Shown here piece after piece: positions 5,688 to 49,208 of a stretch of DNA of 64,000 nt. Each line of letters starts with the position of its first letter. The stretch's first letter is position 1. The DNA is from Capillidium heterosporum. Its lineage: Eukaryota; Entomophthoromycota; Entomophthoromycetes; Entomophthorales; Capillidiaceae. The position numbers and the translations under genes were made by a program. A model generated the notes under the pieces. The model did no database searches and was not told the origin of the DNA. It was given only the letters and a program-made list of their open reading frames with translations. The DNA is taken from contig WBMQ01000011.1 of the NCBI GenBank assembly GCA_016630905.1, positions 1,178,001 through 1,242,000 on the forward strand, read 5' to 3'.

Positions 5688-8077
5688 ATGGATAAAAGAA
5701 GAGAAGAGTTAGAGAAGAAGAGGGTTCGATTAGCAGCTCTCCGACAAGAGCGTGAAGAGCGTAAGGCAGAGTTGTTGGCAGCCCAACCCTCCCCTACTCT
5801 AAATGCACCTTCAACTGGGGGTATCAACCGCTCACGAACTTTCGCTGCTCGCGGTAGGGCCAGTGCAACTTTGACGCCAACCAGCTCTGAGGCTCCAGAG
5901 TTACACACTAGAGGTGCCAGTATAAGCGGCGCCATCGAAACTACCGCATTGAGACGGAACATCGACATGTTAGTTGAAGAATTTGTACCCGAGCGGGCAC
6001 CTTCAGCTGCTTCAAGCATTTCGGATAAATTTGCAACGCCATTATCCTCAACCGACCCTACTCGCGTCACCTCCCCGCTAGCACAACAGACTACTGTTCG
6101 ACCTGTTCCAAAATTAACTACAGTACAAGCCCTAATTTACGACATACCACCACAGGAAAGAGTCGTCTACAGCAAGGAAGCTCAGACTACATTAACTATG
6201 GCCGATTCCGCCTATTACGATGAAGCCGAAGTCAACCGCCGTGTCGAAGAAGCTAGGCAGAAGGATGAAGAAGAAAGGCAGCTGAAGTTGGAAGAGGAAG
6301 CCCGCATAAAGGCTGAGGAAGAGGCAGCTAGGTTGGCGGCTGAACAGGAAGGTGAAGAAGATGACATCCCTGAGCTTACTGAGGAAGAGAAGGCTGGGAT
6401 AATTACTTCCGAGCATTTCAAAGAGTTTTTGGACAACTCATCCAAAGTCATCGAGCGTGCTCTAGGTGAGAAATACGACTTTATGATCGATTACACGGCG
6501 TACGATACGGCAAATGAGGATAGTAGCCGAATGGACAGCGTTAAGCGCATCGCACTCTTTGCCGACGATCGTATTACCCGCCATCGCTCCGTAATGGACA
6601 TTCACTGGTCCCCCAACCACTCCGAATTGCTGTTAGGTGCGTACAATAAGAACGTCTTAGCGGCTAATGAGCCTGACGGTCTCGTTGCTATTTGGAATTT
6701 GCATTTAGCTGATCGTCCCGAGTTTACGTTCCATGCTCAGGTAAATTTAGAACATACACATGCTTATTTTATCTTTGCAGCTCTTTAAGTTAAAATGTTA
6801 ATAATATGATAAATAGTCTGATGTCTTAACAGCCAAGTTTTCGGCGCATCACCCACATCTTATACTTGGCTGGAACTTATTCGGGCCAGGTAGTCATTTG
6901 GGATACTAGGTCCAAGTCCAAACTGCCGGTCCTCTCTTCACCTTTAACCTCAATCGGCCACACCCATCCCGTATATCACATCGATTTGATAGGTACGCAC
7001 CAGACGCTTGCCGCGGTGTCAGCTTCGACCGACGGGATGGTTTGTACGTGGCAATTAGATATGCTTGCTCAACCACAGGTACCTATACGGCATCTTTATT
7101 ATTAAATATAGGATAGGATATCCTTGAGCTTTCTCATACCGGGCATCCAAGAACCGATGAAGTGGCGATAACTAAGCTAGGATTCCTTGCCAATGAAACC
7201 GCCACCTTCTTGGTCGGAACTGAAGAGGGCACCTTGTACCATGCCCATCGCTATGAACGTGCTGGAAGGTATTAGTTTTTGTTACATATTCGCTTACATT
7301 GAAATAGCAAAGCTGGTATCCACCCACATCACAGCTACAAGGGACATACCGGCCCTGTAACTGGTTTATCTTGCCACCCTACACAATCCCAAGGTACCAC
7401 CGATTACTCTGATCTCTTCTTGACCTCGTCTTTTGATTGGTCCGTCAAGTTGTGGCGTGCTAAAGTAAGTAGCTATATAATATGCAACTAATCATCCTTT
7501 TCAAGTCGGCTTCCCAAGCCAACCCCACTACAAGCTCCCTTACCGGCCAGCCTTCGCAGAGTATCCAACCCATTCATTCGTTCGAACATGGTGGTGACTA
7601 CGTCTATGATGTCCAATGGTCTCCTACCCACCCGGCCATGTTCGGTGTCGTAGACGGTTGTGGTCACTTTGACTTGTGGAATTTGAACGTGGACACCGAG
7701 GTAATTTCTATTTTATGCTACATTTCTAACACCCACCCTTAAACTTCTAGGCCCCTATAGTATCTACACCTGTATCAGAGCGCGCTCTCAACAAGCTGGC
7801 TTGGCATCGTGACGGCAACAAGGTTGCAGTCGGTGCTTCTGATGGTCAGCTATGTGTTTACGAGCTGGGAGACGTAAGTTTTTAGTTAGCAACTTACTTA
7901 AGCTTTGTTTAGATGGTTAACCCTTCCGCCGAGGATTGGGAGCAGTTACAACGTACCTTGACCGAACTTTCGGCAGCTTCGGCTTCCAACTCTACTAATA
8001 TCAAATCCCATTCGACTTCCTCTCTCTCCGATTTCACATCTGGTCTAAGTGGTTATTCGATGCGATCTGGAGTCTAG
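5688..8077 (+). CDS. cytoplasmic dynein intermediate chain, with one +1 frame break
   Basis: A WD-repeat subunit of cytoplasmic dynein that links the motor to dynactin. Exons: 5688-6740, 6817-7078, 7117-7268, 7308-7464, 7506-7700, 7751-7873, 7913-8077; predicted length 701 aa if one base is skipped. Residues 1-35 form the charged N-terminal helix ([20 protein letters not shown]) that binds p150Glued in this family. A second Glu-rich coiled segment lies near residues 175-235. WD repeats fill the C-terminal half ([89 protein letters not shown]). Exon 2 opens with [17 protein letters not shown] and must then move +1 at about 6868 (CTT-G-GCT) to read AGTYSGQ. Both sides are strongly conserved dynein sequence. 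An alternative acceptor at 6831-6832 keeps one frame but destroys the conserved SDVLTAKF block. The identity is secure; the status of the extra base is not. Confidence 0.9.
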
Positions 8078-8423
8078 CTTTAAATGATGATAAAGTTTTA
8101 AAGTATAAATTTGGTTAGTGTACTGTTTTGTTTGCCATGAAAACTATTTGAAATGCTCGAGATATAACATATATTCATAATAAAGTAAATACCAGTGACT
8201 ATAGTTTAAGTTCTAAAACTACTATCAAATTAGTAAGCACCTGAAATAAAAAGTAAAGGTTGGAGACTTTGAAGCTATAGCTGCTTGAACTATACTAGCA
8301 AACTAATTTTATTTTGATATTCATCTACAGATAAATCTCACAGGAGAAGATATTATAATTAACATTAATTAAATATAGATTAGTACGATTTCAAATCCCA
8401 AAAATATATCCAAAATTCAAAAG
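8078..8423. other. convergent 3' flanks of dynein and calcium-channel genes
   Basis: About 350 nt of AT-rich DNA between two genes whose 3' ends face each other. AATAAA-like words (for example near 8180) could serve polyadenylation. No gene is seen. Confidence 0.5.
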
Positions 8424-11400
8424 CTATCGCTTGGAAGGTTCGTCCTCAAAGAAGCTTTGCCATGCATTGGATTCCAAAGAGTCCATCAAGTTGAATGCAG
8501 TGATCTCGTCCACCAAGGCGCCACTCGTATCCAAGTAAGGCGAGGTAGGTGAAATGCTAACGGAAGGTAGGACGTTGGGTAGATAGGCGCTGTAGCCTGA
8601 TGCCGTAGAGTTGTTAGACATCTTTCGAGCGATGTTCAGCTGGGAATGAGACAAAGTTTTCTTTACCATGTTGGATAGGCTCGGCGACCGGTTAGGCTCC
8701 TTGTGAGGGACGCCCAACTGTGGTGAACTGACATCCAAACTTCGTACCGAGCTTCGACTGCGGCCAGTTCGTGATCTTTCATTGGGGCTGACGTCATGGG
8801 GAAGCCCAAATGTATCGATTACGATCTCGGGGAGCGGGGCTGAGAAGGGAGATGGGAAGGGACTGCCGCTTCGCTTGAGCTTCAGGTGGTTGATGAACTT
8901 CCTACGCAAGATAAGCGTACGGAAGAAACCAAGGGCTTTCTCCTGTTGATAAGTTTCCAAAATTTGAATCTTCTTCTTTCTAAAGGCAATTAGGTCGTCG
9001 ATTCGTAGGCAGTGGTCGGGGTTTACGAGTTTGTACTGACTCAACAAGATAAGTATGTTGGTTATCGATATACCCTTTGAACCTTCTACATGGGTTAGAG
9101 CATGGTAATAAAACATATTGAATTTATGTCGGCGTCGCAAAGTCTTCCGAAGTGAAATTTGGTTTAGCTTCGAGTTGAGCCACTTGAAGTAGTTGGAATG
9201 GCCAATGTCGTTATCCTTACCACCTGATTTACCGACCAAAAGTTCCGTACCAGTTTCATCAAGGTCGCTGTCTTTACTGCTCGATCCTGAAATCGCCGTC
9301 CACGTCGCTTGTAGGCTGGAAATGTCGTAGTCAGAATCGAAGAAACGTAGCTGAAAAGGCTTTTGGAAGGCACGCATAAGCTTGACGAGATCTTTGGTCG
9401 GAATATAGCCTTTCCCATATCGATCGAATTGACTCCACACCTTCTTGAAGTGCCTGATATCTTGTCGGTTAAGTAGAGAAAACGAAGCCGCTATCTCATA
9501 GCAGTAGTTGAAGTTGTCCATCACTACGACGACGAACATGTTGGTAAAGATGTACATTGACAGGAAGTTGAAGGAGAGAAACAAGGTGTAGGCCCAGAAA
9601 GGATTGCCGCAGTCCGAATTCAGATAGTCGTGAGGGTCGATGACGCAGTAAGGAGCTTCAACTGTGTAGTCGTGCATAACATCGTTCCAAGCTTCACCAG
9701 TAGTCATCCGGAACATCAATAGCATGGCGTTTCCAAAGGATTTGAAGTTGGCTAACTCGGAGCCGCTAGCTCCAATCTTGGTCAAGCCAAACATCTGGGT
9801 GAAGAAAATACAGTAGACTATGTATAGGATAAGCCAGATATAAAGGGTCCTTAAAATATCGGGCAAACTAGCTCTAAAAATAAAGTTAATACAGTAAACT
9901 AAGAAACAGTGGTAAAAATAGACTTACAGGGCGATGCTACTGAGCTCAGCAAGACTGTCGGATTTGGTAATAAGCTTGAAGGTGACTAAAAGGGTCAATA
10001 TGTTGGATATGTCGTTAATGACAACATTTTTGGGATTCTGGATCGCATATATTGTCCCAATCAATGCCGATAAATTGATGAGTGCATGGACCAAAGTCCA
10101 GGGTCTGCGAGCATAAGCAGCAAAACCCAAACCTACTATCTTAAATATTAAATCCAACGATACCAATATAAGGCAGACCAGGATACAGTGGTTCTTAATC
10201 CGCACTACATTTTGTCCTTGTCCATTAAACTCTGTTATCAAAAGTAAAAGAATTATAATGTAGAGACCAGTAAGGACATTGGGCCACCAACCCTTCTTTT
10301 CAGTAGCTCGCTTGAAACACCACTTCTTCATCTTTCCAAAGTACGATCGCGAATTATAAGTAACGCTTGGTCTGAAAGAAGGTTCCACTTGGGACAGTTG
10401 CTTATGCAAATCAATCCAACGTCTCTGGTCAGCCGTCAAATGTGATATTCCAGTATAGACACGGTAGTTCTCGATAATTACGGCTACGAACATGGACAAA
10501 ACGATAATTGTTCCGACAACATAAAAGAAAATGGGGTACAGGCAGTTCCACCAACTTATCTCTGGAATAGGTTGTGTATCCTTACCACTGATAGACATCA
10601 ATCCAGTCATCACATCTACCCACTTTTCACCCGATAAAACTTCGACGAGGATCAATAGTGCTGAAGGAAAAGTGTCGAAGCTAAAATTGTCATGATTCCC
10701 CCATACCCGAGGGATTACGATGTTGTTGGAGGTTCTAAAAAATCCTTTGCAGTGGTCGATGGTTTTTACGTCTGGATCGTTACAGGAAGCCAACTTGCCA
10801 TCAAAAATAAGCTGCCCATAGAATGCGTAGGGTATAATGAAAGATATCAGTAGAATGGATACGTCCAATATCAAGGGAAATCCAACGACAAATACACCGT
10901 ATAGAGCATTTTGGACTTTGTTGGAGAAGCTAGTTAGACGTAAGGCACGTAATGCTTTCAGCGCCCTGAGTGCCTGGCTGAAGTGAGAACTGTCGTGAAC
11001 AGAGACACTAATGTCAACCGCGTACAGAACCAAAACTAGAAAATCAACTCGGTACCACATATTCTTCAGGTAAGCCTTGGGGGTGAAAAGGAAGCCATGG
11101 GCTATCGTCCGGACGACAAATTCTAGAAAGAAAATGGATGCCATAATGTAATCGACAATCCTTAGAGCATACAACTTATCCATATCGATTTGGCGCATTT
11201 CATTACGATAGTTTGGTGTGTTGATCAGCGCTAAAATGACGGTGATGACGATGGAAGTCCAGACTAGCAGGTTGAACAGGAAGTTTCGGGTACGCCAGGT
11301 CGGTACGCGTTTATCTTCCCTAGTGATCGGTGGGTCGGTTAAGGAAAGACAAAATTGACGTACGGGATGGTTCGGTATGAATATAAACCAGCTGCAGTTG

Positions 11401-16275: not shown

Positions 16276-19200
16276 ATGCCGTCAGCAAGTAAGGTTAGTT
16301 CTATGTAAGTACACTAAAATCGCAAAACACAGGTCGCAAAAAGCCAATTATCGAAGAAGAGTTTGAAGTACATGAAGTAGAAGAGATCTTGGACTCGAAG
16401 AAGATTAAGGTATGGCATGGGTTTGTCTTTGTGCTAAATTGCTATTTTTAGGGCCTTGTCCATTATCTAATTCGTTGGGCCGGCTTTGATGAAGATGAAA
16501 ATTCTTGGGAGCCAGCTGCCAACATAATCGATAAGCAGCTGATTAAAGATTTTAATTCCAAAGGCAAAAAACGTAATAGCAAGGCCGTTGATGATAAGAC
16601 CAAGATTCGTAAAGGAAAAGGAGGAGGCAAAAGAATAAATGCGAAGGCACTTGCAGAAGAGAATCGAAAACAGAACATCAAAACCCGCAAAGGTATCAGC
16701 ATCGATAAATCAACCATTCCCCACGACACTGAGATCAAGGAATACTGCTGTTTGGTCTGTGCTTCACGTCTTTATACCGACGCTATGGAGTCCGAAATCC
16801 AGAACCCAATTCGCAAACGTAAAGGTAAAGTTACAAAGAAAGCCAAGGAATCCAAGACCACTCCTCCGTCTGGGAACAAGTTGTTCGATAGCTTAATCAA
16901 ATCCGTATCCGAAGTTCCCTCTTTCAACCATGGTGCATTCCCCGACGATTTTGGCGCCAACGCTTTAGCCTACGCTTTGAAGGCAAATCGAACTGACTGG
17001 GTTACTATTTTGTGTAACTCAACAAACGACAGAGCCCAACCTCCAGATAGTGCTTTAAAAGCTCCCGGTTCTGGAACTGGCTATTTGAGAAAAGGCACTT
17101 TTAGACACGCCGTCAGGTAACTAAAGCAAAAGCGCAACTTCTAATATCTTCTTAGCACCGTCAACGAATCTCGTGGGAATCGTGAAGGAAACAATGCTTT
17201 TTACAAATACGAGTATGGTGATACGATGCAACTGAACCATAGAAAATGGAGAGCTTTTACTGAATTTAAGGAATGTGCCTTACTCAACGCTATGAACGAT
17301 CCCAATTTTAAACTCGAAACATTGGATCACTACATGGATTTGGACCACTCCAACTACAATTCAGCGATACAGAATTTCATATACGAAATGGCTTCATGTG
17401 GTAAGCGTGCTATCGTAGCGCACCTTATTGAAAAAGACAGCGGCTCTGGGTTCAACCATCTCCATTTAGAAGTTGTGAAGGTAATATCTGCTAGCTTATT
17501 TTTATTTATATAGTTAGAATGTAAACGGAGAAGAGCTTACTTCCTATCGCTCAAACCAAGTCACAAAGAAGCCTTACGGCCACCGTCAGATTCAACCCCT
17601 CCATTTAGCAGCAATCAATCCTAAAAGTAACCTACCTTTCCGAGTTTTTCAAAGCGTTACCTTCTGCTGAATTCATCAACTGCGATGGGAACGGTCGTAA
17701 CGTAGCTTACTTTGCAGCTGTCTCTGAAACCACCGATTGTTTGGAGTTTCTTATTGAGAATGTAAGCACCTTTATACATACAATAGCTAACAGCTAATTT
17801 ATTTAGAAATTTGATATTAATTGTTTTGACCAACAAAAAGTTACACCAGTGATGCTAGCAGCTATGCACGGTAGCTTTGTTTAATTTACTTTTACTTATA
17901 TGTACTTTTAGGAAAAACCCATATGTTCCCGCTTTTCTTGGAAGCCCTGGGTAGCGACGCTTTTGCAACTAAGCAGTATACCAAAGGGTGGACCTTGCTA
18001 CACTATGCTGCACACTACGGACATGCCGACTCTTTAAAGTGGCTAATCGATCACATTCCCTTGGATTTGCTAGATAAAGAGTCCAAGGCATCTGCTTTAC
18101 ACCATGCTGCTAAGATGGGCCATCTGGAATGCGTAAAGGTTTTAACTGATGCCGGAGCCGATCCCGAGATCAAGAACAAATTCGGATGCAGCCCACTCCA
18201 CCTTGCTGCTAAGAACTGGCCGGGCCGATATAGTCCATCACCTTTTAATTGATTGCGGCGTTAATTGTGACGATAAGGATACCTCAGAAAATACGTCTTT
18301 GCACTACGCTTCTGCTTACGGATGGCTGGATGTAGTCGATTTGCTCGTGCTAACTGGTGCTGATACTAATGCTGCTAATATTTGGAAAACCACCCCTTTG
18401 GCAATTGCTGACAGCAAAGGACATATAGCCGTTGTCAATCGCTTACTGAGCAATTCAAATGTCGACGCCAATTTCAAGAATCGAGAAGGTATGAACCTTT
18501 TACATACTTATGTTATTTCCAACCCGGATGACTGGTACGATGCCAACCGTTTAATCGCCAAAGCTAATAAGCTGATATCCCGTGACAATGTAGACTTGGT
18601 AAGTATTACTATAAATGCCCATTCTAATTTTTAATAGGCAACTGGTGATATGAACGATGATACACCTTTACATTTACTCGCTGCCTCAAGCTATTATATC
18701 GAATCGAACATTGAGCTTCCTGATCAACCTCCCCAATATTACAACGAGATTGTCAAGTACAATGAAAAGAAGAAGAGCAACGAACTACACGGTGAGTTTC
18801 ACGATGACCATGGTACTCAAATCCAAATCGACTTGGCCGAATTATGTATTCAAATAGGTGATTTATGCCATATTGCCTTGTATTTATTTAAATTTAGGAT
18901 GTGATATAAATGCCAAGAACAAAAAGGGATATACACCACTTGCTCAAGCAATGAACGAAGGTCACATTGATATCGTCAAATACATCCTGGATACGCTCAA
19001 GGCTGACTGTGTCGAATCGATTTCTAGAAGCGGTGACAATATCTTGCACTTTATTTTGAAGCAGTTTGCCTTTTACCAAACCAAAGGCAAAAGTTTCGAA
19101 GGCTTCGAGTCGATAGAGTCACGGAGAATCAAGAGGCTTCAAACTAAATTAACCACAATATTGGATAGTTTGTTCAACGGGCACTATGACGACCAGCTTA

Positions 19201-22200
19201 AGAAGCTTGCCAACCAACCGAATTCAGAAGGATTTACTCCCATCATGCTAGGAGTGATGGAAGTCTACAACCTTCAGAAGGGCGAAGCTGATATTCATAA
19301 CTTGAATACCAACACATTTAGCCCTGAAACCAAATCTAAGGACCTTGATTTCCAATTTGACTATTTCGTAAACTATATATTTAATCAGCTTTTAATATGT
19401 ATTGTAGATAGGTGCGCTGGAAAGAATTGTTACTACTTGTAATGTGGATGTGAACCTTCAAGTCCAATTCCCCAAGGATTACTTTACCGAGGACAAAAAA
19501 CCCAAGCCAGAAAAGGAGCCAAAGTATACAGGTAATAGTATTTCCTATAAGGCTTATTAAATCCTTTTAGGCTGGAGTCCTTTACACTTTGCCTGTAGTA
19601 TACAAGAGCCTGAATTGATTGGCATCCTTCTCAAACATGGTGGCGATCCCAATCTCTTTAATTTTGGTTACAACGATGGTCGTACTCCCCTTATGATAGC
19701 TTCCGAATTCAAGTCCGATCCTTCCGAATGGGCACACTTCAACACTTCTTGGACCGGGAGATTTAGCATAACTTATACACCAGGGTACGACAAATGGATA
19801 TCAATTTTGACTCAACTACTCGAGGCTGAAGGCGATCCCTTTTCTCAGCCAAAGCCCGTCAACTACTATAAAACTGAAGCCCCCGTCACTCCAGCCTTCA
19901 ACAGTTCGCCTATACTTGTGCTTTTAAAGCATATTAAGAATGATGAGTTTTTGCAAATCGTCGAAAAGCTCAAGTATAGTGTAGGAACAATGCTGTCGAT
20001 GAAGCTTAGTTTAGGGGGGAATAGCTTTGGAACAACGCCTTTAATGCAAGCTTTAGAACATAGCAAGATGGATCTTTTCAAGGTAATTTAAGCTTTTATA
20101 CTAAATAGTAACGATTCAATAGACTTTATTAGATGCAAGGCTGGATGTGAACTCGATCAACTATGATGGAAATACCGTTCTTATGCTTGCTTTAAAGAAC
20201 AATAACTTGGATGCTATATGTTTGCTCTTAAGTGGCAATTTCGAGTATGTAGCAGGTTTAGATTTATCAATCATCAATGAAAAGAGGGAGTCGGTTCTAA
20301 CCTTAATTGGTGCAAACAAATGCATGGATGCCTATAGATTAATCCCTCCTTTCCTATATAAATTCCACCACATCGATCATCAAGACGACTCTGGGAAATC
20401 AGCACTATTCTGGGCCAGTCAACACAACGTAACTGAAGTTATCGAAAAGCTGGCACGATTTGGAGCAAACGTCAACTTACCCTGTACTCTTCCACCATCA
20501 TCAACTAAAGTTATAAAGGAAGATGGAATGACTCCAATCATGGCCGCAATTGCCCACTATTCCGAACATACTGTTGAGGCTATAAGGATGCTAATTAGTC
20601 ACGGTGCACAGCTGGAGATTTGCGATTATTATTCTTCGACGGCTTTACATTATGGTGTTATATCCCAGGACCACAAGTTAGTCAAGCTTCTGTTGGAGAG
20701 CGGCTCATTCGTCAATACTAGAGACCACTATCAACTTACTCCGCTTCACTTGGCTGTCAAAAATACTCTTTCACAAGTTGACAAGACTTTACGGATTGAA
20801 AGACTTCTAATTGAGCATGGGGCCGATATCAACGCGACCGATTACCAAGGTATTTAACAGGTTTATAGCTTTTCTAACTTTAAATATAGGCCGAACTCCA
20901 TTGCATCTGTGCTTTTCGATACTGCACATCATACCTTATATGAGCTACACTCACAAGTTCCTAAAGCTTTCGCAAGAAGCCAAGGTGTTCGTCGATAATG
21001 AAGCTGCCAAAGAGATCAAGATCAAAGAGTACTTCAACGAGTTGGAAATCAAAGACCAATGGTTTAGACAATTTATATCCGATAACAAGGTACTACCCCC
21101 GATGCGTGAGGAGGTTAAGCAGTTGCAAGAGGGTTATAGCGTCGAATGGTTCAACAACAGCCCGTACCGCCACAATAAGTTTGAGAAGGACTACTCGTTT
21201 GTCAAAGAAGATCCAATTGATTTAATTCGATATCTTTTGACGTTAAACAGCATCAAAGTTGATGAGAAGGACGCTTTCGGTAGAACCCCTTTACATTACT
21301 CATCTAGGGTCGGAGCCTACACATGTACCAAGTATCTCATCGAACGCGGCGCACGACTGGATAATCTCGACCTCGACAACAATAGTCCCTTCCACATTGG
21401 TTTAGTATACGGGCATCTTGACTACTCTATCATGCTCTTGAATATGGGCGCCGAAGTTCTAACACCTTTAAAATTAGGCAGAGGCAAGGAAATCACCCCC
21501 TTCTACCGGTCCTTGGAAAAGTCGTTCATGCCTCTAGCTTACCTTATCATTGACCAAAAGATAGGATTCTTGAAGGCGTTACATGACACTCTCAAATCCG
21601 GAAAGCTACATCTAGCAGCAACTTTATTGGCCAAAGCTTCGCCAGAATACATCACCTCGATCGATAAGACTACTAATCGTAACATAATGCATATACTAGC
21701 CGACTTTTCTCCTATCGACACCCGCTCATGGAAGGACTACTTGGTTGAATTTTTGGACATCATCGACAAGTTCAATATCCCAATCGATGCCATCGACAAC
21801 GAGAATAATACACCACTTATAATAGCTGCTAAACATTCGCAGAGCGAATTTTGTCGGATTTTGATAGAGAGGAACTCAAGTAGCAAGTACCTTAACCAAG
21901 TAACCAAATGTGGAAAAAGCGCGTTATGGTATACGATCAAGAATGCTGATTTAACCACTTCAAATGTAAGCCTATTGTATTTGATGATACTAACTTAATC
22001 ATTTAGATCCTCTTGAAGCGAAATGTCAAGTTAGATAATATCAATGTACTTAAAAACCCATCACTTCTCCATCTGGCTGTATCCTATTCCCAACAGTTGA
22101 TCAATGTAAGTTTATTTTAAAGGATTAAATCTGATAGTTATCTTTAGGAATTGGTTAATAGAGGTATCAAGGTTGATGAAGATATTCTATATGGAAGATG

Positions 22201-25200
22201 CTCCGTATTTATCCTTAGTCTTCTCAACAATCCATTCGCAACTCCAAATTCCAGGATAGAGTTTTGGGAGCTGTTGATCGGTAAAGGCGCCAACATCAAT
22301 ACACCAGGACCGGTATTGAAGCTTTTAGTTTCTGACAGGAACAAACTAGCTCCTGGCGAGGAAAAAGAGTATGTCACCATCCATCCTGCCTTCCTGGCTA
22401 TCAAACTGACTTTTGAGGAGAAGAAGTATTTATTCGAGCACGGTTTACAATGCAATGTTCAACATCCTCTTACCAACCAGTATTTGGTCCGATCGATCGA
22501 CGATTCTGCTACGTTAGAGCTCCTGTTAAAGCAAGGTCTGGATCTCAACTCCAAAGACAGTACCACCGAGAGGCCTTTCATATACGAATTGATTATGGGC
22601 CACCACCGATTGACTTCAAGCAAGCCTGTGACGCTATGGGAAGATATTTGGGACTCGAAGAACGCCTTGGACATTTCATCGGTCGATCCAGTTACCAATC
22701 AAACTCCATTGGAATATGCAATTCGCAAGAACGATATGGAACTATTTTCTTTATTGCTAAGCCATGGCGCCGATCCCTATGTCCATTCCTGTCTTTTACA
22801 AGAAGATCTTTCGAGTGAGCTAAACTTAGTTGATGCTGTAGGACATACACTTAACCTTAACCGACCCGATTTTTTCCAAGTTTTGGTTGATTATACTGAC
22901 AATAGCAACACCTGGGCAAGCTGGATCCAGCAAGATCCCCAGTTAAGGAACAGCATATTCTACATCATTACGCCAAACCAGTCAACCTTTTATAACAACC
23001 TCGAAGTTCTTCGAAGTACGCTCACGATGTTCAAGAGCGCCGGCGTCGATTTAACTAAACTTGAAGGTCAAAGGGATAAGCTGGGTTTCACCTGCCTAGA
23101 GTACGCAGCTATGAATTATAACTTGAGTGTCTACAACTGTATGCTAGAATTTGGGTTTAAAGCGCTGCGCCAATCTGATATATCTAGGCTCCAACTCGAC
23201 AAAAACTTTGAAGACTTGTCAATAAGATTAGACATCGATCTCCCCAAGGTTGAGGTCGATAAGGATGCTGAAGCTGGACGCAAGTACTTGGAGGATCTTG
23301 AAGCAGAGAAAAACAAGAACAAGGCTGTCGCGCACAAAGATCCGTTGAAGAAAGTTGACCCTAAATCGGATTTACAAGGAATCGGTGAGATTGCTCTGGG
23401 CCACGACAAGGAACCTTTGACTGTCTCAATGAATCGTACTGAGATGGCGAGCATGTACTACAGCTCTAACATGTTTTACATCTTACAGCTCATCTACAAT
23501 CCCCTTACTTCGGTGTATGTTATGTTTACTAGGTGGGGCGGTATTGGCGAGGATGGCATGTATCAAGCGCACTCCATTCACCGACTATGATCAAGCAGTT
23601 AAGGAGTTTGAGGCGGTGTTCAAAGCAAAGTCCGGGAACCTGTGGGCTAACCGTGGCGATGACAAATTTGAACCAAAGCCCGGGAGATTCGTGGTCAGTA
23701 AGACTTTCAAACCAAAGCCCATGGCCCCTATCGAAAAGGCTATTGAACATAGCAGCTCGGTCAAGTCCAAGCTGCCCGAGAACACCAAGAACTTGATGCG
23801 ACTCTTCACCCACCTTTCAACAATGAACAAGCTCAACAAGGACACTCATACCGACATCCCGTTAGGCTTTTTAAGTAACGATACCATTAAGCAGGGGAGG
23901 TTGATTTTGGATCAGATTAAGGAAGCTATTGATGGGTTCAGTAAGGGTATCTATAACACCAAGCCTCTGAACTCCAAGGAGCAAGCTCAAAAGCGTATGG
24001 AACTTATCCAGCTCAACAACAAATACTTCACCACCATACCTCGGCTTTCTCAGGATATCGCCAACATCCAACCTGTTATAAATATGAACAAGCTTAGTGA
24101 TGAAATCGCTAGATTGAACTCCATTCAATACCTCAATGGTGGTGCCAACGTACTGCTAGCTTCTCATGCGAAGTTGGATAGTATAAACCCACTCGATTAC
24201 TGCTACTCGGCCTTAAACCGATCCTTTACCGAAATAGCGTGTAATCACCCTGAGTTCAACCTTGTTCACGAATACATCGGCAGCGGTACATCCCAGTACG
24301 ATTTAGTTCAGCTTATTCGACTTGAACAAGATACCGATTTCGATAGCAAGTTCAGGGATACCACTCGTAAACTATTGTGGCACGGCTCCTCATTAAGTAA
24401 TTTTATCGGGATCCTTTCCCAAGGCCTTCGCGTAGCCCCTGCAGAAGCGAATGTGCATGGATATATGTTTGGTAAAGGTATTTACTTTGGAGATAACTTC
24501 AACAAATCAATCAGCTACTCCAATTCATATTCCAGTCTGGATTGTGGCTACTCGTGTCTGATCCTAAGTGAGGTAGCGGTTGGAAAGTCTAGACAGCATC
24601 TCTACAGCAGATATTACTCCGAAGCTCCTGAAGGCTTCGACTCAGTTAAAGGCATAGGTGGAACTAGGCCCAACCCTGACAAGATCAAGTACCTTCCCAA
24701 CGGCTGCGAGATTCCTTCGAGCGAGCTAGTTAAAGTCGACTTGAGCACAATAACCCCAGAGGATGAGTTTTTCTGCGACTACAATCTACTCAACTACAAC
24801 GAATACATCGTCTACGAGCCGGAACGTGTCAAAATGAAGTACCTAGTTGTCGTGAAGGATAAGAACCAATGCCATCTTTGTAACTCCAGCTCGTCAGCCA
24901 AGACCTTGAACAGCTACTTGACCATGGACTCCAAAGCATTCAAGGATCGCTTCCAGACCAACACTTCCAAATTTAACACTATGCTAGACCGATCCTTCCT
25001 AAATGCCAACCTTTTCGAAGTACTACTAGCCGAAGGCCTACTCAACAGTCAAAACATCGATCTACACACCTTCGTCAACACCTATCTAGCCGGGTACATC
25101 ATTGATCAGAAGCGCTACCAAACCAACAAGGCCTGGAAACCGGTTACTCCACTGACCCGATCGACCAAAGTCTGTGACACCTGTTTCAAAAAGTTCATTG

Positions 25201-25478
25201 ACATCAGCGTCGATTTCTATTTGAGGGACCATCGTCACATGTTGCCCGACAAAGTCAAGAACCTGGAGCCATGCTGGTACGGTAGAGAATGTCGCAACCA
25301 ATCCAAGAACAACCACTTTGAACGGTTTTGGCATGCCAGTGAAAATATCACGGTAGCTGATAAGTCTAGCAATAATGGAGATGACGAAGGTAGCGAGAGC
25401 AAGTCGGATAATGAAAGCTACAATGAGGATGATGAGGAGGGAGATGAGGAGGATGACTATTCAGATGAAAGCGAATAA
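16276..25478 (+). CDS. chromodomain-ankyrin-WGR-PARP-PBZ protein, with three +1 frame breaks
   Basis: A poly(ADP-ribose) polymerase of about 2,876 aa, expected on chromatin. Exons: 16276-16288, 16333-16409, 16452-17116, 17156-17480, 17518-17761, 17807-17870, 17912-18598, 18638-18857, 18898-19367, 19408-19531, 19571-20082, 20123-20849, 20890-21965, 22007-22105, 22148-25478. Domains: chromodomain at about residues 14-57 (FEVHEVEEIL..., YLIRWAGFDEDENSWEP); Lys-rich linker; more than 15 ankyrin repeats at about 370-2000 (TPLHYSSRVGAYTCTKYLIE and similar); WGR at about 2190-2275; PARP regulatory helices; catalytic domain with H-Y-E triad (LLWHGSSLSNF with His near 2512, FGKGIYFGD, NEYIVYEPE); paired CxxC motifs (CHLC, CDTC); PBZ finger CWYGREC...HFERFWH at 25272-25334; acidic tail. 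Single extra bases at 17632, 18217 and 23567 must be skipped; doing so closes every phase exactly. Identity is certain; intactness depends on those sites. Confidence 0.92.
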
Positions 25479-38707: not shown

Positions 38708-41700
38708 ATGACAGTATTACAGCAGGAATCCACAAATTCCAAACTGGCCCCCATTGTTCAAGAAAACGGGGTCATCAAAGTATCTATCCTTGGACGTAAC
38801 TCGATAGTGGTAGGATACAACTTGACCGAGTACATCGTCAAAGAACTTTTAACTATATCCAAAGCCAGCAAAGTCGTCCTAGTAACCGACCAGAACTTGG
38901 CCAAGCATCACCTCAACAACTTTGTAGAGACCTGGGACAAGTTGAGCCAAGGCTCCACCAAGACTTTACACTCCTATATCATACCACCTGGAGAAGGTAG
39001 CAAGAGTCGCAAGGTCAAGGCCGAGATTGAAGACTTTATGTTCTCACTAGGGTGTACGCGTGATACCTGCATGGTAGGAATGGGTGGAGGTGTCATTGGC
39101 GATTTGATAGGCTATGTAGCCGCTACTTTCATGCGTGGGGTTCACGTAGTTCACCTTCCCACTTCCTTATTAGCTATGGTCGATTCATCGATCGGTGGTA
39201 AGACGGCAATCGATGTCCCAGCCGGTAAGAACCTGATCGGAGCTTTCTGGCAACCTTTACGTGTCTACGTCGATCTGAGCTACCTTTCGACGCTACCTAT
39301 CAGGGAATTCTGTAACGGCATGGCTGAAGTTATCAAGACAGCAGCCATTGCCGACGCCGAGGAATTCCAACGTATTGAGGCTGAATCCAAACTCATCTTA
39401 CATTCAGTTGTTCCTATCGTTGACGCCGATCCAACTACGGTGGAGGCCGCTAAGCTTGCGTTGGAAAAAGTCGTCCTCAGTTCAATCCGGTTCAAAGCTT
39501 ACGTAGCTACCGAAGACGAACGTGAACTTGGGCTGAGAGGTCTACTCAATTTTGGCCACTCCATCGGTCACGCCATTGAAGCCATCCTCTCACCCAAACT
39601 TTTGCATGGGGAATGTGTCGCTGTAGGTATGATCCAGGAGGCCGAGGTTGCCCGTAGTTTAGGTTCGATTGGTCAGGTTACCTTGGCTCGGCTTACTCGA
39701 GTACTCAAGCTGTACAAATTGCCGACCAGTCTCCATGACCCCATACTGAAACCATACCTCAAGAGTATCAAGGACAAAGAGTTGCCAGTCCAGCAACTTA
39801 TGGATATTATCAAGCTGGACAAGAAGAATTTAGCTGGTAAGAAGCGTATCGTCATTCTATCTGGTATCGGCTCTACAAGAGCTTTGGAACCCGAGTTTGT
39901 TGAGGATGTTGAATTGGAACGAGCAATGGCTCCGTCCGTTCAAATCGATTCCCACAACCCATTGGCAAAGGACCAGCACGCTCAGGTAGCGGTTCCCGGA
40001 TCCAAATCCATCTCCAACCGAGCTTTACTTCTAGCCGCCTTAGGTTCCGGCCGTTGCAAGTTGCGTGGGCTTTTACATTCCGATGACACCCAGGTAATGT
40101 TGGAGGCATTACGCGTCATGGCTGGTGTAAAGTACGAGTGGGAAGACGGCGGTGAAACTTTAGTTATCCAAGGTTGCGGTGGTACCGAGAACTTTAAGGT
40201 TCCCGAGAACGAAATCTACCTAGGAAACGCCGGTACCGCCTCTAGGTTCTTAACTTCGATATGTGCTTTGGTAACTGACAAGAACAAAGGCTCTGTTGTA
40301 TTGACCGGTAACGACCGTATGAAGCAACGTCCCATTGGACCTCTAGTTGACGCTCTACGCTCCAATGGATGTAACGTCGAGTACTTGGGAGGCCCAGGAT
40401 GCCTCCCTTTGAAATTCCAGTGTAGTGAAACGATGAGCCTCAAGGGTGGTGTCGTTGAACTTTCAGCCGATGTCAGCTCCCAGTACGTCTCTTCTATATT
40501 GATGGCCGCCCCTTACACTACGACCGGTATCACCTTGAAAGTTAGTCGGTGGTCACGTCATCTCTCAACCCTACATCGACATGACTTTGGCTATGATGCA
40601 GCAGTTTGGTGTCACTGTAACCCGACTTGAAAATAACCAGTACTTGATTCCACCTACCGGTTACGTCAACCCCGACCACTACCAGGTCGAAGGAGATGCC
40701 TCATCAGCAACCTACCCCTTATCAGTAGCCGCTATCACTGGAACCCAGTGTACCGTCACCAACCTGGGTTCTAAATCCTTACAGGGAGATGCTCGCTTCG
40801 CTAAGGATGTCCTAGAGCGGATGGGATGTACCGTAACTCAAACTGATATGACGACTACTGTAACTGGACCACCAGTAGGTAGTTTGAAATGCCTTCCCGA
40901 GATAGATATGGAACCTATGACTGACGCCTTCCTTACTGCATCGGTACTGGCTGCTGTAGCTACCGCCCACCCCACCACCCCAGGAGAATCCCCCGTAACA
41001 TCGATCTCGGGTATTGCCAACCAACGTGTCAAAGAATGTGATCGTATTGCTGCTATGGTCCAGGAGCTTGGTAAGTTGGGCGTTGAGGCCTGGGAACTCC
41101 CCGACGGCCTGTCCATCCGTGGAAGACCCTATACTGAGCTTAAGCCAACAGCCGATGGTGTTGAATGTTTCGATGACCACAGAGTTGCCATGTCCTTCTC
41201 GGTTCTAGGTACGGTGGTCCCTGACCTCTTGATAAGAGAGAAACGTTGTGTTGAGAAGACAGTTCCCAACTGGTGGGATATTCTGAAACATAAATTGAAC
41301 GTCAACCTCAAAGGTATCGACCTACCGGCTCACAAAGAACATGGGGTTGAGGCCGGGAAGAGGAGCCCCGATACCAGCATCGTTATCGTAGGTATGCGTG
41401 GTGCTGGTAAAACTACTTTGGGTATCGCCTTGAGTCAGCAGCTCCACTCCAACTTCATTGACCTAGATGATCAGTTCCTCAAAGTCTTCAACAAGACGGT
41501 ACGTGATGTAGTTGAGAAGGAAGGATGGAACGCCTTCCGTGCCCTGGAACAACAACTCATTACCCAGACGTTGCAAGAGTTTGGTACCAATACCGTCATC
41601 TCCTGTGGTGGGGGTATTGTCGAACATGAAGCCAACCGCACATTATTGAAACAATTTGCTGCCAATGGGGGTATCGTATTACATCTACAGAGAGATATCA

Positions 41701-43577
41701 ATGCCATAGTCAACTACTTGGCTCAAGATACTTCGAGACCCGCTTACTCCAATCAAGAGTCGGTTCAAGACGTGTGGGCCCGTAGAAAGCCATTGTACGA
41801 CGAGGTTAGTAACTTTGAGTTCGTAAGTTATGTACCGACTGGTGAGGAATCCAACTTGGCAGCCGCCGCCACCAACCTGACCAACCTAGTCCACCTGGCA
41901 CGTGGTCGTAAACCTCAGATTCCTCAAGTCGTCGTTGGGGGTAAACCTAGCTTTTTCGTATGTCTTACCGATCCTGACCTGTCGAAGGTTGCTAGTAAGT
42001 TGGACCAGGTCGTTGCAGGTACCGACGCTGTCGAGCTTCGAGTTGACCTACTGAAGGATGATACGACTCCCGAAGATCTCCAGTTCGACGACACTTCCTT
42101 TGACAAATTCGTAAGCTATATCAAGAACCAAGTCGCACTTTTACGTTACATTTTACCCGACCTTCCCATCATATTTACTTTGCGCACTCAGACTGAAGGG
42201 GGCAAGTTACCTGATAGTACGCCTAGCAAATACTTGGTAAAACTCTACGACTTGGCCATCCGATTCGGTATCGAATTTTTGGATGTGCAACTGAGCTTTG
42301 ACGACGAGGTTGTGCAGTATGTTGATAGGAACAAAGGCTCGGCACTTGTCATCTCGTCGTACCATGACCTTGAAGGTAAGCTGGATTGGAAACCCGAAAC
42401 TGTCAGACCTCTATTCGAACACAGCAATAATGTAGGCGACATTGTCAAGCTCATTTCAGTTGCCAAGACTTCGAGCCACAACTTGAATTTGGAACAGTAC
42501 CTGGACCAACACTACACTCAACCCAACTCCAAACCTTTGATAGCCATCAACATGGGACAGTTAGGTCAGCGTTCTCGCGTCACCAACCGTCTACTTACAC
42601 CAGTCACCCACCCTCTCTTAGCATCCAAGGCGGCGCCTGGTCAACTCACCATCACCCAAATCCACCAGGCCCTTCAATTGTTAGGCACACTACCCAGCCG
42701 ATCCTTCTATATCTTTGGCAGCCCACTATCCAAGTCCCCATCCCCTCACCTCCACACCTCGACTTTCGAGCAGGTAGGTCTACCCTACCAACTCAGTGCC
42801 TTTGACCACCTCGATCACAAGTTGTTACCTAACCTTATGGCCAGTGAAGAATTTGGTGGAGCTTGCGTCACCATACCTCACAAAGTCGACATTATCCAGT
42901 ATCTTGACTCAGTAGATGACATCGCCCAAACCATTGGAGCCGTCAACACGGTCGTAGTCGAAGTTGGCGAAGAACAGAGAAAGTTGAAGGGATACAACAC
43001 CGACTGGTTAGGTATCTACCATACCGTACTTGAGGCCACCTCTTCCAAGAACCAAGCTATCGATGCCAAAGCTGGTGATGCCCTCGTACTTGGGGCCGGA
43101 GGAACTTCCAGAGCTGCCGTCTACGCCTTACATAAACTAGGATTTACCAAGATCTACATCTACAACCGATCTGAGGAACGTGCCCAAGAGCTCAAGCAGC
43201 AATTCCAAAATACCGTTCAACTTGAATTACTCATTGGTCAACCAGCTTTAGACCAATTTTTGGCATTGCAGACTTTGAATTTGGTTGTCGATACTTTACC
43301 TAAGGATGCTGAGTCCATTGGTCGAAAACTGGTAACTGAACCTACTTTGAATGGGAAGTTTAAAGTTTTAGTTGAGTTGGCGTACGCTGGGTATCAAGAT
43401 CAACTAGAAATCGACTCATTGAATAAGGATGGGAATTACATTATTGTCAGTGGCTTAGATGTTTTGAAGGAACAAGCTAGACACCAACAGTTACTTTGGA
43501 CGGGCAGATTACCTAGTACGAAGTTCGTGGCAAAGGTTACCGACGAATTTGTCAAGGAGTATAATTTTTATTTTTGA
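38708..43577 (+). CDS. ARO1: pentafunctional AROM polypeptide, with one +1 frame break
   Basis: The fungal AROM protein carries out steps 2-6 of the shikimate pathway in the cytosol. One exon; 1,622 aa if one base is skipped. Domains in order: 3-dehydroquinate synthase (about 1-395; GMGGGVIGDLIGYVAA, DSSIGGKTAID, NFGHSIGHAIE); EPSP synthase (about 405-855; PGSKSISNRALLLAAL, LGNAGTASRFLT, CFDDHRVAMSF); shikimate kinase (about 885-1045; GMRGAGKTTLG P-loop, SCGGGIVEHEANR); type I dehydroquinase (about 1070-1290; TDAVELRVDLLKD, SSYHDLEG, KLISVAKTS with the Schiff-base lysine); shikimate dehydrogenase (about 1320-1622; FGSPLSKSPSPHLHTSTF, GAVNTVVVE, LGAGGTSRAAVYAL). The frame breaks after residue 611, inside the EPSPS domain at about 40541: TTG-AAA-G-TTA-GTC-GGT. 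Conserved YVSSILMAAPY lies before it and VGGHVISQPYIDMT directly after, in the +1 frame. The zero frame stops at 40630. Everything else is intact, which argues against an old pseudogene. Confidence 0.95.
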
Positions 43578-44393: not shown

Positions 44394-45182
44394 ATGGTCC
44401 AATTCTACGATCTCTTCCAGAAGGAAGGTAGCAAGCGCTTCTCTCCATTCGCCTGGCGTACCCTCTTAGCCTTGAAGCACAAGCAGGTCGAGTTTGATCA
44501 CATAAGCCTGACCTTTATTCAGGTCCAGGCTGAGATCCCACAAATCACGTAAGGCAATTGAGCTTTATCTAAATAACCAAAATTTATAGCAACAATGAGT
44601 GGAAGCAAATCCCTTTAGTCAAGTTCGACGACGGTAAAGTCGTCTACGACAGCCCCACCATCGCCGACTACTTGGAAGCCAATTATCAAACTGGACCCAA
44701 GCTTTTCCCCAATGGGCGTAGCTATGCTACCTTTTTGGAAAACTACTTCTGGACCAACGTCCGACCCATCTTCTTGTGCTGTATTTATGATATGTATGAC
44801 GGTTTGGACAAGGAAAACCAAGCCTACTTTCGTAAATCAAGAGAAAGTTTCTTTGGCACTACCTTGGAGAACCTAGCTAGCCAGTCTGAGGTTCAAGAGA
44901 AGGAGGTAGAGAAGTACTTGGCCGTGTTCTTCACTACTTTGAAAAGTAGTAGGTTCTTGGAGGGTGAGCAAGGTAATTTTTTGTAAAAATTTAGTAGTTT
45001 CTAAAGGGACTTTGATATTAGTTACTTATTCGGACTACGTCTTGTTCGGTCAGTTACGATGGATCGCCGCTATCAGCACCAAGCTCTTTGACAAGTTGGT
45101 TGCCAAGCATGAAGATAAAACTTTGATCAACCACTACAACTCTATTGAAGGGTTGTACGACGGGTTCTCCAAAGGTCTCTAA
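44394..45182 (+). CDS. glutathione S-transferase, etherase-like group, copy A
   Basis: A two-domain glutathione transferase. Exons 44394-44548, 44590-44972, 45022-45182; 232 aa. The thioredoxin-like N-domain has FSPFAWRTLLALKHKQVEFD, which resembles the [WF]SPxxWKTRLALxxK segment of fungal etherase-related (GTE/FuA) transferases, where the Ser is the likely catalytic residue. IPLVKFDDGKVVYDSPTIAD gives the cis-Pro and the Asp-Ser pair that hold glutathione. The all-helical C-domain ends with TYSDYVLFGQLRWIAAI. The start was chosen by agreement with the other copies; upstream codons lack an ATG. Both introns are at the same positions and phases in all six copies. This copy lies inside an inverted repeat and is essentially identical to copy C. 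Likely job: conjugation or ether cleavage of aromatic or toxic compounds; the substrate is unknown. Confidence 0.9.
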
Positions 45183-46456
45183 ATAAAGTACACTACCATT
45201 ATAAATTATTGTCTCTATACTTGAATAATTTTGAATGATATACTTTTCAAATGTATGTGTGTGTTGATATATCTTATTGAATCTTGCCAAGATATTCTAT
45301 CGCTTCATAACCAAAAGTGGAAAGTTTACAGCTCCATCTATCTCTGGAATTGTATATGTGATCCAGCAACCATCTAGTTTTTTAATCTATAAACTACATG
45401 CTTTTGAACTATCTTATTCCAATCCAAATTGGACTTGTACACGATAAATTATCTTTTAATAAGGCCCATCATGATGAAAATTTCAAATATCTCTACCTTC
45501 CTAATCTCATTCCAAGGTAAAATATAGTTACTTAAGAGTCTTTTCAAAACTACGTCTCAGCCTACATTTTTTAGGTATTTGGAATATCTTTTGTAAAAGC
45601 TGTTAAGCTATGCAGAGTCATACATTATTAAACTAGCTTCTCAAGTTTTATATCCACTTGAAGGGGTAGTACCTATAGAATTGATGGATGCCAAGCACCA
45701 TATCACTAAACTTTTATTTATTTGAATATATACTTCTATTGTAGGTTCGGATTTAGCATAATGCTATTTATTACCTCATCTTCTATACGCAACTAAAAGA
45801 TTTTTAAAGCAGATGATAGAACTCCCACCAGGTGCCACCATCCAAGTATATTTTTGGTTCTTCCTTTTAAAAGTCGAGTTTTCAATGCTCCATTTTTTAC
45901 TACACTAGTTGTGGATTCGATATCATCTATAGGTATATTATATTTCATTAGTTGAAGATTAACTATGTAGTGAATTTCAAAAAAATTGAGGAAAATAAAT
46001 AGAAGCATACTTTATATATAGTAGTTACTTTTATCTTAGCCTATCAATAAACCAGTATGAAATAGATACTTATACTTTCGTGTTAATGGTTTTTCAATGC
46101 CGATTTCAATTTCATCTAAACCAGTTTGAATCCATTGGATTACTAACCAACTTTCAAACCAAACTGAAATGAAGGTAGCTGGGATAGGTGACTGCTTTGA
46201 AGAGCTTGCTACTGTTGGGTGCTAATTGGAAACCTACTATAAAGGGATATACTTTGATAAAGTGGATACTAATCCAATATAGTATATTTTACCCACTATA
46301 AATAAATATTTTACCAGTATCTATTTGGTTTCAGAAGGTTGAATAGCTTCTCAGCTTTCTTAAGCGTTTTGCTAGGGAATAAATTTGGAATGCTACGTCA
46401 GCTACTCTACTAACTAGTATTGCAGGAACAGATACAAACCGGTTCTGAATTGCTTT
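45183..46456. other. intergenic between transferase genes A and B
   Basis: About 1.3 kb of AT-rich DNA. The left inverted-repeat arm ends at 45306; the rest is spacer. No gene recognised. Confidence 0.5.
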
Positions 46457-46478
46457 GGGTTAAACTTAATAAACCGAC
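46457..46478 (+). promoter_or_regulatory. conserved upstream element of transferase gene B
   Basis: GGGTTAAACTT-N3-AAACCGAC, identical in 19 of 22 positions to the element before genes A and C. It lies about 210 nt before the ATG of gene B. Confidence 0.45.
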
Positions 46479-46620
46479 TTTAGAATCCTATCGCCGTCTA
46501 GAGTTTTGGAATGTAAGCTCAAATCCAGTTCATACTGTTTAGTCATCCAACAGCTACCTACTTAGTAATCGAATTCCAAAGTTAGGGTTGGAGCTACATC
46601 CTTATCCCTTCAAATAGAGG

Positions 46621-46630
46621 TATATAAAAG
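46621..46630 (+). promoter_or_regulatory. TATA box of transferase gene B
   Basis: TATATAAAAG lies about 55 nt upstream of the ATG. Confidence 0.55.
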
Positions 46631-46685
46631 ATGAAGTTCGAACTCCAAAACACTTACAAAACACAAAGTATAGCTAGCGACAAAA

Positions 46686-47479
46686 ATGACTCAGTTTTAC
46701 GATTTCATCCAAATTGAAGGTGGTAAGCGCATCTCCCCTTTCGCCTGGCGTTCTCTCTTAGCTCTCAAGCACAAGCAGGTCGGATTCGAGCACGTCGGTC
46801 TAACTTTGACCCAGATTCAGGACCAGATACCCAAGCTTACGTAAGATGCTCTTATTTTCTCAACTAACTTTTTTGCCAAATAGTAACGACGAGTGGAAGC
46901 AGGTCCCTTTAGTCAAATTCGACGATGGTAAAGTCGTCTACGACAGCGCAACTATCGCTGACTACTTGGAAGCTAACGTCCATACCGGTTCCAAATTGTT
47001 CCCCAACGGACGTAGCTACGCCACTTTCTTGGAAAACTACTTTTTGGCCAACATCAAGCCCATATTTTTGAGCAACATCTTGCACATCTTCAACGGTTTG
47101 GATGAGGAAAACAAAGTTTACTTCCGTAAGTCTAGAGAAGGTTGGTTCGGTACCACTTTGGAGGTAGTAGCTAGCCAGCCCGAGGTTCAAGCTGCTGAGG
47201 TTGAGAAATATTTGGCTGTCTTCTTCAGCACTTTAAAAGGCAGTAAGTTTTTGGAGGGTGAGCAAGGTAATTTTTAATATTTATGGACCCTACAATTCTG
47301 ATTTTTTGTTTCTATTAGTTACCTACTCGGATTACATCTTTTTCGCCCAGTTGAGATGGATCGCCAGCTTGAACACCGAGCTCTTTGACAAGTTGATCGC
47401 CAAGAACGAGGACAAGACTCTTCTCAATTACTACAACTCCATCGAGGAGTTACATGGTGGATTCGCCAAGGGTCTTTAA
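46686..47479 (+). CDS. glutathione S-transferase, etherase-like group, copy B
   Basis: A paralogue of copies A and C sitting in the spacer of the inverted repeat. Exons 46686-46840, 46884-47266, 47319-47479. It reads MTQFYDFIQIEGGKRISPFA, keeping the Ser-Pro of the putative active site, then VPLVKFDDGKVVYDSATIAD and a C-domain ending TYSDYIFFAQLRWIASLNTE. Protein identity to copy A is high (roughly two thirds of residues by eye), and intron positions are the same. It shares the upstream GGGTTAAACTT-N3-AAACCGAC element and TATA spacing with copy A, so co-regulation is likely. Codons are C-rich, suggesting good expression. It was probably the neighbour of the copy that later gave the inverted pair. 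Substrate unknown. Confidence 0.9.
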
Positions 47480-48131
47480 ATGAATAAAGCGCATTACTCT
47501 GTTAAAGTTTAATTGGAATATATATATGAATCAATATAAAGGTGCTGTAGCATCTGCAGCTATTTTTTCAAACTCGAGTAGTTTAGTCTAAGATTTTTGA
47601 CACCTATAATAAAAAAATATAAATAACTAAGTCTATTTAATCAAGTAGCAATATAGATACAACTTCCGCCAGAAACTTAAAAGGTACTTAAACGATGATA
47701 CTTATAGTTTTGAGAGGTGACCTAGCTCCATCGTCTAATGAATTTCAAACTTGAACCGATCTTCAAAAGGTAGGCCGGAGATCAAATAGCTTAAAAAGCT
47801 CCTTGTGTACTTTATAGTAGAATTCTGAAGTATTTTATATTCTACCCTCCTATAAAAAGCAGTTTATTGAGTATAGAGTCAAATTGAAGAGGGATAGAGT
47901 TTTTTTCCAAAAACTTATAGTTTGTAGGTTGGTTGTATGCAATCATCATGAATTTACAAGTCTAACTTCAAAAGATTGGTTAATCTTTGGATTTTTCACT
48001 ATAGTTGGAAGCGATAGAATATCTTGGCAAGATTCAATAAGATATATCAACACACACATACATTTGAAAAGTATATCATTCAAAATTATTCAAGTATAGC
48101 GACAATAATTTATAATGGTAGTGTACTTTAT
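47480..48131. other. intergenic between transferase genes B and C
   Basis: Convergent 3' flanks of genes B and C, AT-rich. The right inverted-repeat arm begins at 48008. The frame at 47884-48099 has no recognisable domain. Confidence 0.5.
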
Positions 48132-48920: not shown

Positions 48921-48971
48921 AATTTCTCTTGTATATTTCGATTTGTGAATTTTCAAGCCGGATATTGGTCC

Positions 48972-48979
48972 TTTATATG
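48972..48979 (-). promoter_or_regulatory. TATA box of transferase gene C
   Basis: Mirror copy of the CATATAAAGG element before gene A. Confidence 0.5.
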
Positions 48980-49186
48980 TCTATCGGGACTAACGTAAGT
49001 GCGATTCCTGTCCTAACCTACTATCTATTTATAGGATGGGAGGATCTGATCAGACCTACGCAGCCATAGGCCCCATCTGAATGTGTGATGGAGATCTTAG
49101 TCCAATCAATTAGATAACCCAAACGATGACTAAATGTATTTACTAGAATTGGTAGCACAGGCTGTGAAATCGATACAAGGCTCTAT

Positions 49187-49208
49187 GTCGGTTTTCCAAG
49201 TTTAACCC
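49187..49208 (-). promoter_or_regulatory. conserved upstream element of transferase gene C
   Basis: Mirror copy of the GGGTTAAACTT-N3-AAACCGAC element of gene A. Confidence 0.45.

Follow-up and report, generated by a model that had tools for sequence, protein, structure and literature searches.

A single gene in the 64 kb stretch of Capillidium heterosporum DNA analyzed here (the window) encodes a protein in which a chromodomain, an ankyrin array, a WGR domain, the PARP regulatory and catalytic domains (PRD and CAT) and a CHFR-type cysteine-rich domain with a PBZ finger (CRD-PBZ) follow one another in one chain. Most likely this is a chromatin-tethered ankyrin PARP whose fused readers would keep the enzyme where it writes. 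We infer tethering, modification and retention from what can be read in the sequence, namely the domain order, the His-Tyr-Glu site, the CHFR-type tail, the conservation and the loss of the WGR arginine. There is in our judgement about an even chance for the complete reading, in which the protein is an Entomophthora-related member of a conserved group of large ankyrin Clade 1 PARPs of early-diverging fungi, with the chromodomain at the N-terminus, the CRD-PBZ module behind the catalytic domain and a proposed reader-based residence. The initial annotation had suggested one chain with chromodomain, ankyrin array, WGR, PARP and PBZ finger, and this is borne out by Pfam, by profiles and by the relatives.

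The 15-exon gene model (Table 1) leads to the same length of 2,876 aa as had been given in the initial annotation, and the chain is continuous only when it is read across three single-base frame breaks, which are discussed below. In a Pfam analysis of the full chain the chromodomain (residues 19–66, 48.9 bits with a cut-off of 25.1) is followed by ankyrin families in the middle of the chain (Ank_2, 382.5 bits), WGR (2194–2271, 55.5 bits), PARP_reg (2307–2453, 56.3 bits), PARP (2469–2670, 147.0 bits), zf-CRD (2670–2785) and PBZ (2807–2830). The two last matches are below the curated cut-offs (22.6 bits with a cut-off of 26.3 and 15.9 bits with a cut-off of 22.7, respectively) and remain below them when the tail is scanned alone (25.5 and 20.0 bits). 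Sixteen ankyrin repeats score at least 0 bits and none was obtained in each of 20 shuffled sequences, and the earlier count of more than 15 repeats is therefore fair. Nothing unusual is seen among the neighboring genes (Na/H antiporter, ion channel, RasGAP, ARO1). In addition the window contains gene models of 230–231 codons with two introns each (44394–45182 and 46686–47479 on the plus strand, 48132–48920, 56629–57424 and 58123–58900 on the minus strand), two of them with equal scores. Spanning positions 44394–58900 on both strands, they look like a small local gene family.

Table 1. Features of the chromodomain PARP gene and the frame break in ARO1; positions refer to the window.
Feature	Position	Strand	Support
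Whole gene, 15 exons, 14 GT-AG introns of 37–45 bp, 2,876 aa	16276..25478	+	gene model
HP1-type chromodomain, residues 19–66, split by intron 16410–16451	16374..16559	+	Pfam, PDB match
Lys/Arg-rich linker	16560..16860	+	judged by eye from sequence
Motif NESRGNREG, upstream of the ankyrin array	17163..17189	+	pattern match
Ankyrin array, about 16–22 repeats, introns within	17554..23176	+	Pfam, repeat count
Frame break 1 (approximate)	17625..17640, near 17.63 kb	+	gene model; homologues colinear
Frame break 2 (approximate)	18205..18220, near 18.21 kb	+	homologues colinear; also called by gene-finding script
WGR domain, motif Trp-Gly-Gly (W2230, G2232)	23426..23660	+	Pfam, alignment
Frame break 3 (approximate), within the WGR domain	23555..23575, near 23.57 kb	+	homologues colinear; also called by script
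PARP regulatory (helical) domain	23766..24206	+	Pfam
PARP catalytic domain, H2512, Y2546, E2652	24252..24857	+	Pfam, alignment
CHFR-type cysteine-rich domain (C2675, C2678, C2776, C2779)	24855..25202	+	Pfam, alignment, profile
CHFR-type PBZ finger (C2809, C2815, H2823, H2829)	25266..25337	+	pattern, Pfam, profile
Acidic C-terminal tail	25380..25475	+	judged by eye from sequence
Extra-base frame break in ARO1 (pentafunctional AROM)	40530–40545, inside ARO1 38708–43577	+	gene-finding script and EPSP synthase profile

The protein is not alone. In a tree of 53 rows picked from 193, calculated with a quick method and with a midpoint root only, 26 rows from Entomophthoromycota, Mucoromycota and Chytridiomycota come together in one group (97% SH-aLRT), which we call the family. 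The window protein pairs with two Entomophthora proteins (99% SH-aLRT), and the deepest split of the family separates Entomophthora, Basidiobolus, Endogonales and Mucorales (87) from the chytrids (93). The groups were named from the genus and four of them were checked (Entomophthora as Entomophthoromycota, Endogone as Mucoromycota, Rhizophlyctis and Powellomyces as Chytridiomycota). A branch with a support of 100 sets 42 rows, the family together with 16 other ankyrin-type or environmental proteins, apart from the 11 PARP1/2-type rows. The combination of ankyrin repeats, WGR, PRD and PARP corresponds to Clade 1A according to PMC2964712.

Five named fungal proteins in the public databases carry chromodomain, ankyrin repeats, WGR, PARP and the tail. 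Since the same layout is found in distant early-branching fungi, we appear to be dealing with a real, unstudied enzyme family rather than with a chance assembly. The initial annotation knew of no described protein with the full set. In agreement with this, no paper on a chromodomain PARP is among the matches listed from a search of titles and abstract openings of open-access papers; in the databases, however, the five proteins share the set. A further profile search in which 8000 candidates were scored was uninformative, its three matches all being already known.

The segment from WGR over PRD to CAT aligns with PARP1 over the whole length at 2.3e-45. The His-Tyr-Glu triad noticed in the initial annotation is indeed present and is invariant in a 24-row alignment. 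Judged by this triad the catalytic site is intact, and the protein is predicted to transfer ADP-ribose.

Behind the catalytic domain the last 212 aa find two distinct sequences in the PDB at E ≤ 1, both of them CHFR. When the tail of the window protein was combined with those of eight relatives into a profile, CHFR (2xp0) was matched at 2.3e-19 and a second CHFR structure at 3.8e-19; the match spans the later part of the CRD together with the PBZ, and the next hit is the PBZ of APLF at 0.008. At E ≤ 0.01 a PBZ is recognized in all nine tails and zf-CRD in eight of them, and the two CxxC pairs as well as the C, C, H and H of the finger are invariant. Profiles recover the chromodomain directly, and the PBZ by comparison of the nine tails, its score in the window protein alone being below the cut-off. 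The spacing C-x5-C-x7-H-x5-H is as first stated, and a PBZ finger had been called correctly; what had been overlooked is that the finger is part of a CRD-PBZ module of the CHFR type. A consensus given in PMC4030884 comprises a leading basic residue, two Cys, a basic pair and two His. In the PBZ of the window protein the Cys, His and aromatic positions agree with it, and neither the leading basic residue nor the basic pair is present; the pair is absent also from the matched CHFR chain.

A profile built from the tails of 25 proteins and run on 193 recovers those 25 and in addition the fungal proteins P0083 and P0012, followed by P0049 at E = 0.0014. The full PBZ pattern occurs in 21 of the 26 family rows (one of the five rows without it is a model named “partial”) and in none of 48 other homologues, for which the last 400 residues were searched (P0025–P0072; P0021, the 49th, was left out). 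By precomputed Pfam a PBZ is also present in the environmental proteins P0049 and P0059, and hence the association of PBZ with ankyrin PARPs is not strictly fungal. A search of the genome for PBZ gave no match and was uninformative, as it also missed the finger of the PARP gene itself.

The motif of the WGR domain, which the initial annotation had likened to the sensor of DNA ends in PARP1/2, reads Trp-Gly-Gly. In the family (26 of 26 rows) Gly, Ser, Ala, Asp, Gln or Thr stands in third place of the motif and never Arg, whereas Arg is found there in 152 of the 161 other homologues in which this position is aligned; sensing of DNA ends in the manner of PARP1/2 is consequently not supported as it was written. 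From the alignment with PARP1 and the standard PARP1 numbering we take the aligned arginine to be R591 of PARP1. This residue sits at the interface between WGR and HD and is needed for allosteric activation by DNA binding (PMC7515702). According to the same source the R591A protein exchanges faster at damage sites and XRCC1 foci are moderately lowered while focus resolution is largely normal; R591C is recruited and then departs quickly without trapping (PMC5945626). PARP4 is likewise described as lacking the Trp-Gly-Arg namesake residues (PMC10711553). As the effect of R591A is only moderate, loss of the arginine need not abolish activity. In the absence of the arginine by which PARP1 couples DNA binding to activation, gating by DNA breaks is probably weaker or replaced in the chromodomain PARP.

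These data also bear on the possibility, which we regard as real but on balance unlikely, that the protein is an ordinary DNA-damage PARP, activated by breaks through WGR and the helical domain, with extra domains that aid access to damaged heterochromatin. The full-length alignment of WGR, PRD and catalytic domain with PARP1 is what would be expected for such an enzyme, and the Trp of the WGR motif is kept in 24 of the 26 family rows. Furthermore PME-5, an ankyrin PARP of C. elegans, is induced by DNA damage (PMC2964712), and PARP1 R591A retains part of its behavior at damage sites (PMC7515702). Against this reading speak the missing arginine in every family row and the two ankyrin-less PARP genes of the same genome, one of which has RWGR and could serve instead. 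We prefer the chromatin-tethered enzyme.

The source genome comprises 29.5 Mb in 44 contigs. The two further PARP genes, neither of which has ankyrins, are found at C42:474001–484000 (about 90–2353 of that stretch on the plus strand and 7220–9555 on the minus strand), roughly 5 kb apart and separated by an SRF-type (MADS-box) gene. In the minus-strand gene the WGR match is strong (70.2 bits) and RWGR is kept; the gene on the plus strand has Trp-Gly-Lys in the model of the script and a WGR match below the cut-off. A BRCT match below the Pfam cut-off is seen in both. On another contig matches for a chromodomain and Pre-SET lie within about 600 bp (C44:1079685–1080221, plus strand), a pairing which we take to be that of Clr4/SUV39-type H3K9 methyltransferases, and because of this pairing an H3K9 pathway is probably present in the genome. 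PARG (two families) and HPF1 gave no match in the genome; since all 14 controls were equally silent, this does not imply absence. No genome match was obtained for ARH, with 5 of the 14 controls positive.

The best solved relatives of the chromodomain are HP1 chromodomains (CBX5, E = 1.6e-13). Of the aromatic-cage positions, which we assigned presuming the cage of HP1, W39 and F42 are present, whereas the first position aligns with His18; a Phe (Phe15) stands three residues earlier. The Endogone protein has Trp at this first position. In the four chytrid proteins it is occupied by Thr, Met or Ile, and the residue that follows is Tyr or Trp. The initial annotation had assumed that methylated histone tails are read. 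The HP1-like nature of the domain agrees with this, but the first cage aromatic is not clear in the window protein or in the chytrid members, and two clear cage aromatics are left in the former; as His18 takes the place of the first cage Tyr in the alignment, we consider methyl-lysine binding plausible and do not grade it higher.

Precomputed Pfam reports the chromodomain in 5 of 72 homologues, all five fungal, namely P0003 (Endogone), P0004 and P0005 (Rhizophlyctis), P0009 (Powellomyces) and P0013 (Thoreauomyces). Our own chromodomain profile adds P0007, a member of its training set, as well as P0011 from outside that set and marginally P0020; with this profile the domain is weak or not found in the Mucorales members. 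Many family models begin further downstream, and 13 of the 26 rows (window included) have at least 180 residues ahead of the motif NESRG; a chromodomain at the Pfam level is present in 6 of these 13. The Entomophthora proteins P0001 and P0002 show no chromodomain, their models beginning 63 and 53 residues, respectively, ahead of the motif, and P0023 has a long N-terminus yet neither chromodomain nor the NESRG pattern. The longer pattern NESRGNREG occurs in 15 of the 26 family rows as opposed to none of the 48 other homologues examined, and full-length Pfam names no domain in this region.

As chromodomains are found on both sides of the deepest split of the family, one early gain followed by losses would be the simplest account of their distribution. 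The loss of the arginine, the tail and probably the chromodomain fall on one branch of the tree, and their association therefore counts as one event and not as several.

The weak or missing chromodomain in Mucorales would also fit a different division of labor, to which we give only a small chance: the PBZ would act in trans, by recruitment through PAR made by other PARPs or through other partners, and the chromodomain would be minor or degenerating. The CHFR module does work in trans, as its PBZ attaches to PARylated PARP1 but does not bind the inactive E988K protein (PMC4741567). In the aligned family members, however, the tail starts directly where the catalytic domain ends, which favors action near the active site.

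The three frame breaks in the gene need an explanation, for no complete chain would be produced if they were genuine and were not bypassed. Across all three the homologues align without gaps, and the flanking residues are conserved in Entomophthora. In the setting used first the gene-finding script put introns in place of two of the breaks, and both introns had an unusual border on at least one side; this was rejected because residues kept in Entomophthora and others would be deleted. A simple survey of 264 kb with this script (the 64 kb window and 20 stretches of 10 kb) yielded 28 breaks without filtering, of which 18 had one extra base and the remaining 10 were of the other kind. Requiring more than 15 bits on both flanks and discarding weaker overlapping models reduced these, over 28,734 codons, to nine extra-base breaks and two of the other kind. 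The PARP gene contains two of the nine, its first break not being among them, and ARO1 contains one; there the EPSP synthase domain is divided over two ORFs (profile positions 190 and 188). In a simulation control the script detected 87 of 160 insertions and 86 of 160 deletions, so that biased detection by the script does not account for the surplus of extra bases; this surplus suggests systematic insertion errors in the assembly.

The similar break in the neighboring ARO1 makes errors left in the assembly a likelier cause than decay of the PARP gene, and they are our first choice. As the breaks are not peculiar to the PARP gene, we do not read it as a pseudogene. Programmed +1 frameshifting is unlikely, and by eye no common motif is visible at the three homologue-defined breaks and the break in ARO1. 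A misread join of two genes was rejected as the main reading because the relatives carry the domains in the identical order. That the locus is a decayed gene or such a join and that no single protein of this kind exists in Capillidium heterosporum is thus very improbable, for apart from the three breaks the introns, domains and key residues are intact, breaks occur elsewhere too, including ARO1, and distant fungi show the same layout.

How might the chromatin-tethered enzyme operate? The chromodomain would carry the PARP to methylated chromatin and the ankyrin array could select protein partners or substrates. There the PARP would ADP-ribosylate itself and its neighbors, and the CRD-PBZ module would hold the polymer in cis or dock on polymer made nearby, which would prolong the residence. 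Residence would then be set more by the two readers, chromodomain and CRD-PBZ, than by DNA breaks, and a self-reinforcing mark is possible. More speculative, and in our view improbable in its full extent, is the idea that an early fungal PARP was rebuilt from a sensor of DNA breaks into a heterochromatin enzyme: the chromodomain would select methylated nucleosomes, the WGR arginine would be lost and the CHFR-type reader would hold the product, resulting in a self-maintaining PAR domain on silent chromatin and in a one-chain parallel to HUSH with a live PARP.

In this family an enzyme that writes ADP-ribose is naturally fused to readers of chromatin and of PAR, and the combination has been retained across very distant early fungi. 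Two ideas become testable with it, that a PARP can take its direction from histone methylation, and that a fused PAR reader can substitute for the coupling through the WGR arginine which PARP1 uses at DNA damage.

Among known systems the Clade 1A ankyrin PARPs (Dictyostelium ADPRT3, PME-5-like; Citarelli 2010, Perina 2014) share ankyrin repeats, WGR, PRD and PARP with the window protein and are grouped with it in the tree; the window protein adds the chromodomain and the CRD-PBZ module and lacks the WGR arginine. Tankyrase also combines ankyrin repeats with PARP, but identity with tankyrase was rejected as full-chain Pfam finds no SAM in the window protein and WGR and PRD are present. The N-terminal zinc fingers and the BRCT domain of PARP1 are not found (Pfam, E ≤ 0.05), and in place of the Trp-Gly-Arg of the DNA-gated PARPs of the PARP1/2 type there is Trp-Gly-Gly. 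Proteins combining PBZ with PARP are reported from Amoebozoa, Filasterea and lancelet in a survey which could find no PBZ in Fungi (Perina 2014, PMC4245714). In contrast to those proteins the one described here is fungal, so that a PBZ now appears in a kingdom where that survey could not find any, and it has a CHFR-type CRD-PBZ module and a chromodomain. With CHFR it has in common the CRD-PBZ module and the same C-x5-C-x7-H-x5-H spacing, but neither FHA nor RING is found (Pfam, E ≤ 0.05), and the module is fused to a writer instead of a ubiquitin ligase; whereas the reader of CHFR acts on PARylated PARP1 (PMC4741567), here the reader is part of the writer's own chain. HUSH likewise brings together a chromodomain and ankyrin repeats (MPP8) and a PARP fold (the pseudo-PARP of TASOR; PMC7532188). 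The likeness is one of domain content: in HUSH the domains are on separate proteins and the PARP is dead, whereas the window protein unites them in one chain with an intact triad.
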